A DNA stretch of 64,000 bases from a virus, in the IMG/VR virus record IMGVR_UViG_3300023278_002686, positions 1-64,000 of that record; one strand, given 5' to 3'. The notes beneath the pieces are model-generated. The model had not been told where the DNA came from. It searched no databases and worked only from the letters and a program-made list of their open reading frames with translations. A program made the position numbers and the translations under genes. Shown here piece after piece: positions 552 to 38,022 of the stretch. Numbering within the stretch: the first letter of the stretch is position 1; every line of letters starts with the position of its first letter.

Positions 552-565
552 ATAATCCTCCTTAA

Positions 566-636
566 GCTTCTTAACGGACTCGAACCGATACCTTCAGATT
601 GGAAATCTGTAATGCTGCCATTAACACCAAAGAAGC
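566..636 (-). tRNA. tRNA-Gly(TCC)
   Basis: Complete cloverleaf of 71 nt. The acceptor GCTTCTT pairs with AAGAAGC; the anticodon loop TTTCCAA gives TCC; the T-loop is TTCGAGT. CCA is not encoded. Confidence 0.92.
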
Positions 637-642
637 AATTTT

Positions 643-727
643 GAGACGTAATAGAATTGAACTATCTGACAACCACCACACATACATACGTCAAGAGTTT
701 TACAGACTCCCGTGTGGAATACATCTC
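643..727 (-). tRNA. tRNA-Tyr(GTA)
   Basis: Class II tRNA of 85 nt with the long variable arm expected of bacterial tRNA-Tyr. The acceptor GAGATGT pairs with ACGTCTC; the anticodon loop CTGTAAA gives GTA. CCA is not encoded. Confidence 0.88.
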
Positions 728-732
728 GTTTC

Positions 733-804
733 GGTCCATAGGAGAATTGAACTCCTGTTAAAAGATTGACAGTCTTTCGTGTTAAACCACTACACTAATG
801 AACC
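733..804 (-). tRNA. tRNA-Asp(GTC)
   Basis: The acceptor GGTTCAT pairs with ATGGACC. Anticodon arm AAAGA-CTGTCAA-TCTTT gives GTC. 72 nt, no encoded CCA. Confidence 0.92.
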
Positions 805-820
805 AATTTTTATTCTTTAC

Positions 821-891
821 AGATCGGGTAGGATTCGAACCCACAACTTTTAGATTTGGAATCTAAATTTCTTCCATTGAATTACCGATCT
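821..891 (-). tRNA. tRNA-Trp(CCA anticodon)
   Basis: The acceptor AGATCGG pairs with CCGATCT. Anticodon arm TTAGA-TTCCAAA-TCTAA gives CCA; the T-loop is TTCGAAT. 71 nt, no encoded 3' CCA. Confidence 0.92.
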
Positions 892-897
892 AAATAC

Positions 898-980
898 GGA
901 AGGTAGAGGTGTCGATCCCCCATGCTTTCACATGTACTTGCTTTCAAGGCAAGGTGTTAGTAGCCGCTAACATACCTTCC
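898..980 (-). tRNA. tRNA-Ser(TGA)
   Basis: Class II tRNA of 83 nt with a long variable arm. The acceptor GGAAGGT pairs with ACCTTCC; anticodon arm CTTGC-CTTGAAA-GCAAG gives TGA. No encoded CCA. Confidence 0.92.
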
Positions 981-985
981 AAAAC

Positions 986-1067
986 GGTAGGTAATGGATT
1001 CGAACCATCGCACCGTTGCCGATGTACAGTTTAGCAAACTGCTTCCTTACCACTCGGACAACCTACC
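986..1067 (-). tRNA. tRNA-Ser(GCT)
   Basis: Class II tRNA of 82 nt with a long variable arm. The acceptor GGTAGGT pairs with ACCTACC; the anticodon loop TTGCTAA gives GCT. No encoded CCA. Confidence 0.9.
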
Positions 1068-1076
1068 AAATTAATA

Positions 1077-1204
1077 GGGATAATTGGATTTGAACCAATG
1101 CGTCAAGGCCGAAATCACCTTGTTTTCTACCGTAGTTTTATTTTTTTCTCTAATTTTATGATCACTATTATAGATTTTATAAAACTATCTCTGAAATATA
1201 TCCC
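1077..1204 (-). pseudogene. Disrupted tRNA-like element
   Basis: The 3' half looks like a tRNA: a perfect T-arm ATTGG-TTCAAAT-CCAAT, a short variable region, a stem CAAGG/CCTTG in anticodon-arm position and a GGTAGAA D-loop-like stretch. The T-arm is followed by TATCCC. The matching acceptor strand GGGATA lies about 55 nt too far upstream, behind an AT-rich insert with its own palindrome. The anticodon loop is nine nt, or seven without U33, so no identity can be assigned. A decayed tRNA is likeliest; an interrupted functional tRNA is possible. Confidence 0.4.
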
Positions 1205-1208
1205 ACTT

Positions 1209-1280
1209 GGAGCCAGTGAGAATCGAACTCACCTCAAAAACCTTGCAAAAGTTTTTCGCCACCTTGGTACATGTGACCCC
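1209..1280 (-). tRNA. tRNA-Ala(TGC)
   Basis: The acceptor GGGGTCA pairs with TGGCTCC. The stem AAACT/GGTTT encloses the loop TTTGCAA, giving anticodon TGC. T-arm GTGAG-TTCGATT-CTCAC. 72 nt, no encoded CCA. Confidence 0.88.
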
Positions 1281-1286
1281 ATAAAT

Positions 1287-1359
1287 AGACTCGATAAGAT
1301 TCGAACTTATGACTTCCTGCATGTAAAACAGACACTCTAACCAGCTGAGTTACGAGTCT
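1287..1359 (-). tRNA. tRNA-Val(TAC)
   Basis: The acceptor AGACTCG pairs with CGAGTCT. The anticodon loop TTTACAT gives TAC; the T-arm is ATAAG-TTCGAAT-CTTAT. 73 nt, no encoded CCA. Confidence 0.9.
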
Positions 1360-1364
1360 AAAAT

Positions 1365-1437
1365 AGGAAGAAATGGATTTGAACCATTGACCACTTGTGT
1401 ATCAGACAAGCACTCTAACCGACTGAGTTACCTTCCT
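1365..1437 (-). tRNA. tRNA-Ile(GAT)
   Basis: The acceptor AGGAAGG pairs with TCTTCCT. Anticodon arm CTTGT-CTGATAC-ACAAG gives GAT. T-arm AATGG-TTCAAAT-CCATT. 73 nt, no encoded CCA. Confidence 0.9.
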
Positions 1438-1442
1438 ATGCT

Positions 1443-1513
1443 GGGAGACCTGGGAATTGAACCCAGAATCACGGATTTTCAGTCCGCTCTGATACCGATT
1501 TCAGCAATCTCCC
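1443..1513 (-). tRNA. tRNA-Phe(GAA)
   Basis: The acceptor GGGAGAT pairs with GTCTCCC. The anticodon loop CTGAAAA gives GAA; the T-arm is CTGGG-TTCAATT-CCCAG. 71 nt, no encoded CCA. Confidence 0.9.
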
Positions 1514-1520
1514 ATTCTTT

Positions 1521-1644
1521 GGAGTAGATGAGTGTCGAACTCATGTCCTACTTTAATACATCCTTTTAAGGAACAGAAGTTTTCGATTCTTGTGCAGTTA
1601 CGTCACTTCTTATTATCTTAGTAGTCGAAACCAAATACTACCCC
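1521..1644 (-). ncRNA. Miniature tmRNA-like RNA
   Basis: The ends form a tmRNA-style tRNA-like domain: 5' GGGGTAG pairs with 3' CTACTCC, the 5' side carries GGTTTCGAC (family signature GGATTCGAC), and the 3' side carries T-arm ATGAG-TTCGACA-CTCAT. CTACT/AGTAG pair as a P2-like stem just inside. The interior holds a frame GCA to TAA (1595 down to 1566) encoding AQESKTSVP, preceded by GTAACT, with its stop inside the small hairpin TCCT-TAAA-AGGA, as the tag stop sits in hairpin P5 of bacterial tmRNA. At 124 nt it is far shorter than usual tmRNAs (roughly 230-400 nt), and I see no pseudoknots. The alternative is a tRNA with an insertion. Confidence 0.55.
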
Positions 1645-1649
1645 TATTT

Positions 1650-1722
1650 ACCAGCAGAAAGATTCGAACTTTCACTGTACAGAGTCTAAGTCTGCCGCCT
1701 CTACCAATTGGGCTATGCTGGC
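1650..1722 (-). tRNA. tRNA-Leu(TAG), short variable arm
   Basis: The acceptor GCCAGCA pairs with TGCTGGT (first pair G-U). The loop CTTAGAC gives anticodon TAG, reading CUA. T-arm GAAAG-TTCGAAT-CTTTC. At 73 nt it lacks the long variable arm of bacterial tRNA-Leu. No encoded CCA. Confidence 0.85.
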
Positions 1723-1727
1723 ATTAA

Positions 1728-1889
1728 AAAATCAAAGTTCCCAATTCATGAATCTAGCATTGATCCATATGCCTTTCAGTATTACCTTGTTAGAATCTAT
1801 ACTGAGGATGAAGTAAGGCAAGCACATCCCCAATAACGGGATTAAATATTTCCATCGATGACCCATTATTTCATCTAAACTTTGATTTT
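1728..1889 (-). ncRNA. Structured RNA closed by a 12-bp stem
   Basis: A perfect 12-bp inverted repeat (1728-1739 with 1878-1889) closes a gene-free stretch between two tRNAs. Inside are ATCCC/GGGAT, TGCCTT/AAGGCA and CAGTAT/ATACTG, the last two nested, and the interior has more G+C than neighbouring coding DNA. No known RNA family is recognised. It lies in the tRNA transcript and would need processing to be released. Confidence 0.5.
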
Positions 1890-1892
1890 AGT

Positions 1893-1964
1893 GCAGGAGA
1901 GAGGACTTGAACCTCCAACCACATGACCCCAAATCATGTATGCTACCCATTGCAACACTCCCAC
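1893..1964 (-). tRNA. tRNA-Pro(TGG)
   Basis: The acceptor GTGGGAG pairs with CTCCTGC through two wobbles. Anticodon arm CATGA-TTTGGGG-TCATG gives TGG. 72 nt, no encoded CCA. Confidence 0.88.
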
Positions 1965-1972
1965 AGATAAAA

Positions 1973-2071
1973 ATTTCTATCTAAAACATTTAGGGATTAC
2001 ATTATCATACACCTTGTTTTTTCTTGGCCCATTATCCTCATCCAAGTTTAACCATCATTTTAAATAGAAAT
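1973..2071 (-). ncRNA. Second structured RNA between tRNAs
   Basis: The ends ATTTCTAT and ATAGAAAT pair (1973-1980 with 2064-2071), continued by an A4/T4 helix, and an internal hairpin CTTGG/CCAAG uses 2023-2027 and 2042-2046. No cloverleaf can be drawn and no credible reading frame is present. Its organisation, a closing stem inside a tRNA array, resembles the element at 1728, but the sequence differs. Confidence 0.35.
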
Positions 2072-2075
2072 AATT

Positions 2076-2147
2076 ACTCAGGGAGGGATTCGAACCCTCA
2101 CTGGACTGGGCTTAAACCAGATATCTCTTCCGTTGGATTACCTGAGC
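2076..2147 (-). tRNA. tRNA-Leu(TAA), short variable arm
   Basis: The acceptor GCTCAGG pairs with CCTGAGT (first pair G-U). The loop TTTAAGC gives TAA, reading UUA, the dominant leucine codon in these genes. T-arm GAGGG-TTCGAAT-CCCTC. At 72 nt it lacks the class II variable arm. No encoded CCA. Confidence 0.85.
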
Positions 2148-2154
2148 ATAAAAA

Positions 2155-2225
2155 GCTGGTGAAAGGACTTGAACCCTCAACATCTTCATTACAAGTGAAG
2201 AACTCTACCATTGAGCTACACCAGC
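2155..2225 (-). tRNA. tRNA-Thr(TGT)
   Basis: The acceptor GCTGGTG pairs with CACCAGC. Anticodon arm CTTCA-CTTGTAA-TGAAG gives TGT. 71 nt, no encoded CCA. Confidence 0.92.
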
Positions 2226-2230
2226 ATATT

Positions 2231-2300
2231 AACAGGAGTTGGAATCGAACCAACAGAGATTGGCTTATGAGACCAATTTGAATAACCAATTCTTCCTGCT
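2231..2300 (-). tRNA. tRNA-Met(CAT)
   Basis: The acceptor AGCAGGA pairs with TCCTGTT. Anticodon arm TTGGT-CTCATAA-GCCAA gives CAT. T-arm GTTGG-TTCGATT-CCAAC. A lysidine-modified CAT reading AUA (Ile2) cannot be excluded. No encoded CCA. Confidence 0.85.
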
Positions 2301-2306
2301 ATTATT

Positions 2307-2378
2307 AGCTCCACAGGGAATCGAACCCTGATCTCTGGGCTGAAAACCCAACGTCATAAACCATTAGACTATGGAGCC
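2307..2378 (-). tRNA. tRNA-Glu(TTC)
   Basis: The acceptor GGCTCCA pairs with TGGAGCT. The anticodon loop TTTTCAG gives TTC; T-arm CAGGG-TTCGATT-CCCTG. 72 nt, no encoded CCA. Confidence 0.9.
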
Positions 2379-2383
2379 ACATT

Positions 2384-2629
2384 TTATTTAAAATATCTTT
2401 CAGCTCGTTCAGTCATTAATTCAACATCGTGTAAAACATCTGGATGAATTTCAATGTTAGATCCATTGTTTGCTCTACCAATAGCAATTAATCTACCTTT
2501 TTTCATATCGAATTTATCTTTTTCACTACATCGTGACCAACCTATTTGACCTACATTTGTAGCTGCAACTACTCCTATAGGTATTTTGTTTTTACGAACT
2601 CTTGATACAAGAATCTTTGTATCTTTCAT
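2384..2629 (-). CDS. Hypothetical protein within the tRNA array
   Basis: Not recognised. 81 residues, soluble, basic N-terminus, no clear motif beyond a KKGRLIAIGRA stretch near residues 43-53. The start is backed by an AAGGAG site six bases before the ATG. It is flanked closely by tRNA-Glu and tRNA-Asn, so it is probably co-transcribed with the tRNAs. Confidence 0.6.
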   Translation of the reverse strand: MKDTKILVSRVRKNKIPIGVVAATNVGQIGWSRCSEKDKFDMKKGRLIAIGRANNGSNIEIHPDVLHDVELMTERAERYFK

Positions 2630-2658
2630 ATTATACTCCTTAATATAAATTTTAAAAC

Positions 2659-2729
2659 TCCTAGACTTAGACTCGAACTAAGAACAATGGATTAACAGTC
2701 CACTATGATACCGATTTCACCATCTAGGA
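2659..2729 (-). tRNA. tRNA-Asn(GTT)
   Basis: The acceptor TCCTAGA pairs with TCTAGGA. The anticodon loop CTGTTAA gives GTT; T-arm TTAG-TTCGAGT-CTAA. 71 nt, no encoded CCA. Confidence 0.9.
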
Positions 2730-2759
2730 AAGAACCTTCTCTATTATATGTCAAAGATC

Positions 2760-36690: not shown

Positions 36691-38022
36691 ATGGATAAAC
36701 GATTTAAAAATGCAATGTATATATTAAAAGTACTTCAAAATAATAAACATGATGCTGTAATAGCTGGAGGATGGGTTAGAGATAAATTAATTGGAGTTCC
36801 ATCAAAAGATATAGATATAGCAACTTCAGCTAAACCCGAAGAAGTTGAAGCATTATTTGAGAAAACTATTCCTATAGGAAAAGCTTTTGGAATCATTAGT
36901 GTAATTATTAATGAAGATCAATTTGAAATAGCTACTTTTAGAAGTGACGGAAATTCCTTAGACGGAAGACATCCAGATTCCATCACTTTTTCTTCTATGG
37001 AAGAAGATGCTGAACGTAGAGATCTTACTATTAATGGCATGTTTTATGATCCTTTTCTTGATTTTGTAATAGATTTTGTAAAAGGTAAACAAGATATTAA
37101 AGATAAAGTAATTAAATTTATTGGTAATCCTAGAGAAAGAATTCAAGAAGATTATCTTAGAATGTTAAGAGCTATTAGATTTGCAATAAAATTAGATTTT
37201 AAAATGGAAAGTGATACTTTTAGGAGTATAATAGAAAATTCTAAACATATTACTAAAATTTCTTCGGAAAGAATTAAAGATGAATTAATTAAAATGTTTA
37301 GATTAGGAAAACCTAGAAATACTTTATATTTATTATCTTTTTGTCTTTTATTAGAAGAAATATTAATTGAAGTATACATACTAAAATTTTGTGATCAAAA
37401 TCCAGGATGGCATCCAGAAGGAAATGTATGGGAACATACTATAATTGCTATGGAAAATATTTTTAAAAATAATGAAAATCCTTCAGATGAATTAATTTGG
37501 GCAACTCTCTTACATGATATTGGAAAACCAACTACTCAAACTGTAGAAGATGGTGTAATTAGAAGTCATGGTCATGCTAAAGAAGGTGCTGATATAGCTA
37601 GAAAAATTCTTAAAAGATTAAAGTTTTCTAATGATTTTATTGAAAAAGTAACTCGACTTATATATGATCATATGGGTGTTAAAGAAATAAAAAAGATGAA
37701 AAAATCTACATTTAGAAAATATTTAGCTAAACCTTATATTGAGGATCTTATAAAATTAGCATTTGCTGATAGTCAGGCTTGCGGTATTAAAAGTCATACT
37801 AAATGGTATAATACTTATTTAGAAAGAAAAGAAAAATTAAGTAATGAAGTAATAGAAATTTTACCTTCATGCTTTGTTAATGGAAATGATTTAATACGTT
37901 TAGGGTTTAAACCAGGACCTAAGTTTAAAAAAATATTAGGTGAAATTATGGAACTTCAATTAAATGAAGAAATAAAATGTAAAGATGATGCTATAAACTA
38001 TATAAAAAAAATAAAGGAGTAA
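36691..38022 (+). CDS. cca: tRNA CCA-adding enzyme (class II nucleotidyltransferase)
   Basis: Adds or repairs the 3' CCA of tRNA. 443 residues, near bacterial length. The nucleotidyltransferase head has AGGWVRDKLIG (25-35) and DIDIAT (40-45, catalytic aspartates), then the ERRDLTING motif (near 108) and the EDYLRMLRAIRFA neck (near 151). A C-terminal HD domain with LLHDIGKPT near 273 is of the bacterial CCA/poly(A) type. None of the phage tRNAs encodes CCA, so this enzyme probably finishes them and may repair tRNAs damaged by host defence. Followed by a membrane protein and deformylase in one operon. Confidence 0.9.
   Translation: MDKRFKNAMYILKVLQNNKHDAVIAGGWVRDKLIGVPSKDIDIATSAKPEEVEALFEKTIPIGKAFGIISVIINEDQFEIATFRSDGNSLDGRHPDSITFSSMEEDAERRDLTINGMFYDPFLDFVIDFVKGKQDIKDKVIKFIGNPRERIQEDYLRMLRAIRFAIKLDFKMESDTFRSIIENSKHITKISSERIKDELIKMFRLGKPRNTLYLLSFCLLLEEILIEVYILKFCDQNPGWHPEGNVWEHTIIAMENIFKNNENPSDELIWATLLHDIGKPTTQTVEDGVIRSHGHAKEGADIARKILKRLKFSNDFIEKVTRLIYDHMGVKEIKKMKKSTFRKYLAKPYIEDLIKLAFADSQACGIKSHTKWYNTYLERKEKLSNEVIEILPSCFVNGNDLIRLGFKPGPKFKKILGEIMELQLNEEIKCKDDAINYIKKIKE

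Follow-up and report, generated by a model that had tools for sequence, protein, structure and literature searches.

Anatomy of a miniature RNA in a phage tRNA array

The window analysed here, a 64,000-nucleotide stretch that covers positions 1 to 64,000 of the 155-kb IMG/VR virus record IMGVR_UViG_3300023278_002686 (G000), carries an array of at least 14 transfer RNAs (tRNAs; called by ARAGORN), within which, flanked by tRNA-Phe and tRNA-Leu, lies a 125-nt element that is a miniature RNA of the transfer-messenger RNA (tmRNA) type. It is encoded on the minus strand and runs from its 5' end at 1644 to the discriminator base A73 at 1520; an earlier sequence-only reading had the coordinates right and gave no strand. 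Its parts, and the two other features of the window that bear on it, are as follows.

1520..1644, minus: whole mini-tmRNA (Rfam RF00023, E=1.8e-15; model of mid-size relatives built without the window element, E=2e-10)
1638..1644, minus: acceptor stem, 5' strand GGGGUAG, with G3 opposite U70 (sequence)
1521..1527, minus: acceptor stem, 3' strand CUACUCC, then the discriminator A at 1520 (sequence)
1624..1632, minus: tmRNA D-loop motif GGUUUCGAC (sequence)
1620..1624, minus: helix P2, 5' strand CUACU (sequence and ViennaRNA)
1548..1552, minus: helix P2, 3' strand AGUAG (sequence and ViennaRNA)
1605..1610, minus: predicted P4-type stem, 5' strand AGAAGU (pair probability 0.89-0.99)
1575..1580, minus: predicted P4-type stem, 3' strand ACUUCU (ViennaRNA)
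1581..1604, minus: 24-nt loop GACGUAACUGCACAAGAAUCGAAA, counterpart of the loop GACGAAAGGCCCAAAGUAACGAAA in the relative L010, including the proposed resume codon (loop alignments)
1566..1595, minus: nine-codon frame AQESKTSVP plus UAA, the proposed tag, not conserved in relatives (sequence)
1561..1572, minus: small hairpin UCCUUAAAAGGA with the in-frame UAA (sequence and ViennaRNA)
1528..1544, minus: T-arm AUGAG UUCGACA CUCAU (sequence)
565..2730, minus: tRNA array around the mini-tmRNA, 14 tRNAs (ARAGORN)
36691..38022, plus: tRNA nucleotidyltransferase (CCA-adding enzyme), which could mature the 3' end (phrog_2244, E=2.7e-77)

Moving inwards from the two termini, we find that the acceptor stem forms all seven of its pairs, the G3.U70 alanine signal among them, and the T-arm all five; these, together with A73, the D-loop GGNUUCGAC and the lack of an anticodon arm, constitute the tRNA-like domain (TLD) of a tmRNA. 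The CCA end is absent from the gene, and the phage itself encodes a CCA-adding enzyme. With acceptor stem and T-arm imposed, ViennaRNA predicts P2 (p 0.57-0.59), the 6-bp stem AGAAGU/ACUUCU (p 0.89-0.99) and a small hairpin, UCCU-UAAA-AGGA (p 0.74-0.88); folded without constraints, the RNA is no more stable than its shuffles (z -1.06). We found neither the canonical pseudoknot PK1 upstream of the proposed resume codon nor any further pseudoknot, a predicted hairpin occupying the place of PK1; the RNA thus appears to lack the four canonical pseudoknots and, to judge from its acceptor stem, is probably charged with alanine. All of the features from which the sequence-only reading had recognised a pseudoknot-free miniature tmRNA—paired 5' and 3' ends, perfect T-arm, P2 and D-loop motif—are present as it described them.

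Matches to tmRNA models

In a cmscan search of 10 kb, the element aligns to the full length of RF00023 (model positions 1-374) at 45.1 bits (E=1.8e-15), some 2 bits under the curated gathering cut-off of 47; when a 146-nt slice was searched, the reported alignment was truncated and scored worse, at 12.8 bits. A covariance model that we built from nine mid-size relatives (see below), with the window element excluded, finds that element at 45.1 bits (E=2e-10 in 179 kb), and the same model also finds the still smaller, 'super-mini' forms of the phages LuckySocke (4e-12) and Shaeky (7e-14). Of the two programs to which the sequence-only reading had looked for support, the covariance search therefore gave a full-model match just below cut-off, and ARAGORN gave none, making no call for the mini-tmRNA though it called 14 tRNAs in the window.

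Other kinds of RNA fit less well. There is no ARAGORN tRNA at the element and RF00023 is its best Rfam match, so that neither a cloverleaf with D-arm and anticodon arm nor a tRNA with an insertion (a fold that the sequence-only reading had named as counting against its view) describes it. Nor is it a permuted (two-piece) tmRNA: its halves stand in the order 5' then 3', and RF04321 has no match in the 155-kb record at E<=0.001. In our searches of that record, neither SmpB nor another tmRNA, permuted or otherwise, came to light.

Relatives in two size groups

We sought relatives in IMG/VR viral contigs with patterns that join the D-loop, GGAC, the T-arm and the UCCA end at varied distances, and filtered the matches for pairing of the acceptor and T-stem. 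Such patterns fix parts of the tRNA-like domain, and short IMG/VR contigs may be miscalled as viral; all counts of relatives are lower bounds. The hosts that could be identified were those of Streptomyces phages and, for one contig (L178), a Chloroflexi metagenome-assembled genome (MAG).

The relatives fall into two architectures. The mid-size group, of 105-140 nt, comprises at least 23 phage elements besides that of the window (L004, L005, L009, L010, L059, L065, L068, L088, L113, L118, L136, L147, L148/L156/L161, L153, L155, L157, L162, L178 from the bacterial MAG, L224, L237 and L238) and consists of the TLD, P2 and a hairpin with an A-rich/GCN loop; about half have tRNAs inside 1.5 kb, and those run against Rfam score over the RF00023 cut-off. 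The super-mini group, of about 80 nt, comprises at least 120 loci with at least 92 distinct sequences (L035, L036, L072 and L297-L412 in the viral contigs; L413:3001-3078; L414:2000-2079) and is reduced to the TLD, P2 and one tiny hairpin, often AAAGCCGCACGCGGA, with no room for a tag. Isolated Streptomyces phages, LuckySocke and Shaeky among them, carry unannotated super-mini forms within their tRNA arrays; ARAGORN overlooks the mini forms in most cases. Since most phage relatives likewise carry GGUUUCGAC in the D-loop in place of GGAUUCGAC, that motif is no anomaly of the window element.

Other searches added little. By blastn the window element has no match among annotated phages, and the concatenated mid-size elements match only the 3' halves of permuted tmRNAs in Stenotrophomonas, Xanthomonas and Synechococcus phages; two of the Stenotrophomonas phages, Bhz51 (L171) and Marzo (L172), have permuted tmRNAs with the tag VAANDDSYTVRIAA, the annotated span overlapping a tRNA-Thr gene. 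A plasmid search gave tRNA matches only. In a scan of genome contigs, L178 alone resembles a genuine mini form by eye, and most of the other matches look like the 3' ends of canonical tmRNAs or chance. The DNA polymerase, used as bait for relatives of the window phage, retrieved no locus; L118 and L047 each have two distantly similar proteins in common with that phage, and among the relatives found there was none close enough to settle the question of the tag.

Two observations on these contigs stand apart. In L148, L153, L155, L157 and L162 the internal loop that separates P2 from the following helix looks, by eye, like a single module occurring either way round (CUAGCAA/CCGAGUA versus CCAAGUG/UAGCAA), and Pistol ribozymes are found at L005 10932-11017 and L008 5471-5534, on phage contigs with mini-tmRNAs.

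Covariation and the alanine signal

G3.U70 occurs in all 116 distinct sequences listed (92/92 super-mini and 24/24 mid-size, the window element included). Our search fixed U70 and A73 and left G3 free, so that A3-U70 would also have passed; A73 is likewise present in 116/116, as the search dictates. Because G3.U70 is universal although A3-U70 was allowed, and acceptor pairs 4-6 vary freely in the sequences that keep it, the comparison points to selection for alanylation: charging with alanine appears to matter to these RNAs.

The helices tell the same story of constraint. The filters for the super-mini set took no account of P2; at every one of its first six positions, 79-92 of the 92 sequences pair, whereas none of 2000 shuffles exceeds 59. 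The joint covariation score for P2, T-arm and small hairpin is 0.895, compared with 0.197 when shuffled (0/500) and no more than 0.161 in slid registers; the compensatory changes that the sequence-only reading would have looked for in related phages are there. For the loop-enclosing stem (P4) of the mid-size set, a count of three-pair covariation (66/66) was biased by the hand-picking of stems, and we set it aside in favour of an unbiased test, which gives moderate support (5/2000 shuffles). On this comparative evidence we regard the mini-tmRNAs as functional, selected RNAs. A decaying or accidental tmRNA fragment, such as the remnant of an integration into a host ssrA or of a deletion, is accordingly a most improbable origin for the window element: its 5' and 3' halves both pair and G3.U70 is kept, the helices covary across very different phages, and the elements sit in phage tRNA arrays, where a model built from the others finds that of the window.

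The proposed peptide tag

The sequence-only reading had also proposed a nine-codon tag, AQESKTSVP, and the frame is indeed present as described: GCA CAA GAA UCG AAA ACU UCU GUU CCU UAA at 1595->1566, directly preceded by GUAACU and with its UAA inside the hairpin UCCU-UAAA-AGGA. In the account to which this leads, host SmpB and an alanylated mini-tmRNA would let a stalled ribosome resume at the GCA (1595) and terminate at the hairpin UAA, leaving a tail that is not a degron. The alanine resume codon and the resemblance of GUAACU to known resume-codon contexts would suit such a function, as would a stop within a hairpin, reminiscent of the canonical H5. A small stable hairpin can stand in for PK1 in Escherichia coli tmRNA with tagging retained, and two-piece tmRNAs function with fewer pseudoknots (PMC3968760); four relatives (L010, L059, L088 and L113), moreover, also have short GCN frames that end in a stop.

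Seen alongside its relatives, the frame loses much of this force. Loop alignments of the mid-size set reveal a conserved A-rich motif with GCN, and the GCA of the window falls inside just this loop, closed by AGAAGU/ACUUCU: ungapped, GACGUAACUGCACAAGAAUCGAAA and the L010 loop GACGAAAGGCCCAAAGUAACGAAA are identical at 16/24 positions, a figure reached by 349 of 1e6 shuffles. Among 22 aligned mid-size members, 14 have no stop in the GCN frame up to the 3' CCA, and in the remaining eight the stops lie at unrelated distances and end unrelated peptides (A*, ALVKT* and AQSNES*, for instance) that differ in length and sequence; with a stop-ended frame in 8/22 members anyway, that of the window is unsurprising. 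The AQESKTSVP frame overlaps the stem predicted at p 0.89-0.99, and by eye we see no counterpart of the stop hairpin UCCUUAAAAGGA in the relatives. Given the 14 stopless frames, the eight unrelated stops and at least 92 super-mini sequences too short for any tag, the group as a whole shows no conserved tag; and because 14/22 relatives are stopless in the GCN frame, AQESKTSVP itself is probably incidental. We consider a working tag unlikely, and rescue without degradation by way of AQESKTSVP, the function the sequence-only reading had suggested, is not a conserved property, whilst it is possible for the window phage alone.

The GCN frame is open in 14/22 members and the two remaining frames in 6 and 10, which is suggestive, if weakly so, of the GCN frame being selectively kept open. 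Two further candidate tags, in L088 (AFKTTTGRLN*) and L148 (ANTAGLTE*), were rejected, as they occupy the same loop with stops that differ or are absent, and an H-type pseudoknot in the mid-size interior, between the loop GCCC and an upstream GGG, proved not to be general and was dropped. Before a short 'tag' that the eye or a program picks out in an RNA of this kind is accepted, it needs backing from comparison.

Proposed action on host trans-translation

Ribosome rescue is near-universal in bacteria, and the mini-tmRNA group probably engages, and may block, this system of the host. For the window element we lean towards a cut-down tmRNA, probably without a tag, to which host SmpB and EF-Tu bind and which diverts or inhibits host trans-translation. 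Taking the anatomy, the conservation and the lack of a conserved tag as observed, we infer a route in which the mini-tmRNA would be transcribed together with the tRNA array, receive its CCA end, be charged with alanine by the host alanyl-tRNA synthetase and associate with the SmpB and EF-Tu of the host. It would then rival host tmRNA in access to SmpB and to stalled ribosomes, either sequestering SmpB or entering those ribosomes without giving the normal degron, so that during infection the tagging and proteolysis of unfinished proteins, those of the phage included, would be diverted or inhibited. In keeping with this are the covarying helices, the phage's CCA-adding enzyme, the GCN frame open in 14/22 members and our finding no SmpB in the record.

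Several points weigh the other way. Inhibition of this kind has been reported for another molecule, outside this class; the record may be incomplete, in which case SmpB could lie elsewhere; the loop of the window element is without the GCCC of most relatives; and its H5-like hairpin with an in-frame stop, absent from the relatives, fits a tag. Charging, finally, is unneeded for pure titration of SmpB, yet G3.U70 is universal, and entry into the ribosome, whether as rescue or as a dead end, may be the point.

It is because the strict G3.U70 favours ribosome entry over mere titration that we take a tag-less rescue RNA as a serious rival, even though we doubt it. Here the alanylated TLD, with SmpB, would accept the nascent chain and evict the broken mRNA, the ribosome then being freed by other means (ArfA/ArfB-like factors, drop-off or peptidyl-tRNA hydrolase), and the phage would be helped to keep ribosomes working. 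A G3.U70 that the search did not impose, found in 116/116 listed sequences, would imply charging, which titration does not need, and mitochondrial tmRNAs that lack a tag frame are believed to go on helping with incomplete mRNAs (PMC11915505); this route, on the other hand, has no known release step, and tests of a TLD-only molecule showed it to inhibit (PMC4131195).

Comparison with known tmRNAs

Mycobacteriophage DS6A has a tmRNA that is reduced to the tRNA-like domain and is the only TLD-only phage tmRNA named in the two tmRNA surveys consulted; a molecule similar to it is a strong inhibitor of tmRNA whether or not it can be charged, perhaps through titration of SmpB (PMC4131195; PMC11915505). 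Like the DS6A RNA, the window RNA is phage-encoded and has little beyond the tRNA-like domain; set against the published description of DS6A, whose RNA has no tag, it adds P2, a short stop-ended frame and a structured hairpin whose loop is of the conserved type. With canonical one-piece tmRNA (RF00023) it shares the G3.U70 acceptor stem, A73, T-arm, D-loop GGNUUCGAC, P2 and the model match; it differs in length (125 nt against 230-400), in having neither PK1-PK4 as such nor a conserved tag, and in scoring 45.1 against a cut-off of 47. Mitochondrial and plastid tmRNAs that lack a coding sequence (CDS) have also kept the tRNA-like domain and lost the tag frame (RF02544; PMC11915505), but they are mostly permuted, whereas the window RNA is one-piece and belongs to a phage in whose record we found no SmpB. 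Also phage-borne, and often in tRNA arrays, are full-size or two-piece ssrA genes (Bxz1-type mycobacteriophages, Bacillus phage G, Melnitz and Stenotrophomonas phages), but these specify tags, some of them ALAA-like, and either measure about 300 nt or more or have a permuted order.

Tag-less tmRNAs as such, one of them in a phage, are already known: a 2025 database lists 79 bacteriophage tmRNAs and, in all, nine 'standard, no CDS' sequences (PMC11915505). The mini forms are far commoner in phages than has been reported, and in the literature searched, from which subscription journals were mostly absent, we found neither the mid-size architecture, conserved loop included, nor the abundance of super-mini forms in viral contigs described. 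Whether these tag-less RNAs make up a widespread and near-unannotated class of two architectures, to which the window RNA belongs and by which phages would seize or shut trans-translation across many hosts, is in our judgement an evenly balanced matter. It opens a question that can be tested, namely whether small decoy or stand-in tmRNAs are a common phage means to manipulate host trans-translation.

Neighbouring segments of the array

Other parts of the array, all on the minus strand, also caught our attention. A 166-nt segment at 1725-1890 has a 13-bp closing stem, a folding z-score of -2.19 and no Rfam match, and includes AUAAUGGGUCA; a second segment with paired ends, at 1966-2072, has a closing stem of about 15 bp and a similar motif, AUAAUGGGCCA, and is possibly the same kind of small RNA. 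At 1082-1206 lies a tRNA-like element, with no ARAGORN call, that has a T-arm, a long variable arm and a large insertion or unusual 5' half. By eye, further tRNAs missed by ARAGORN are found at 637-721, 897-980 and 1207-1278—likely Tyr(GTA), Ser(TGA) and one weak tRNA, the last of which matches RF00005 at 1208-1278 with 23.7 bits.
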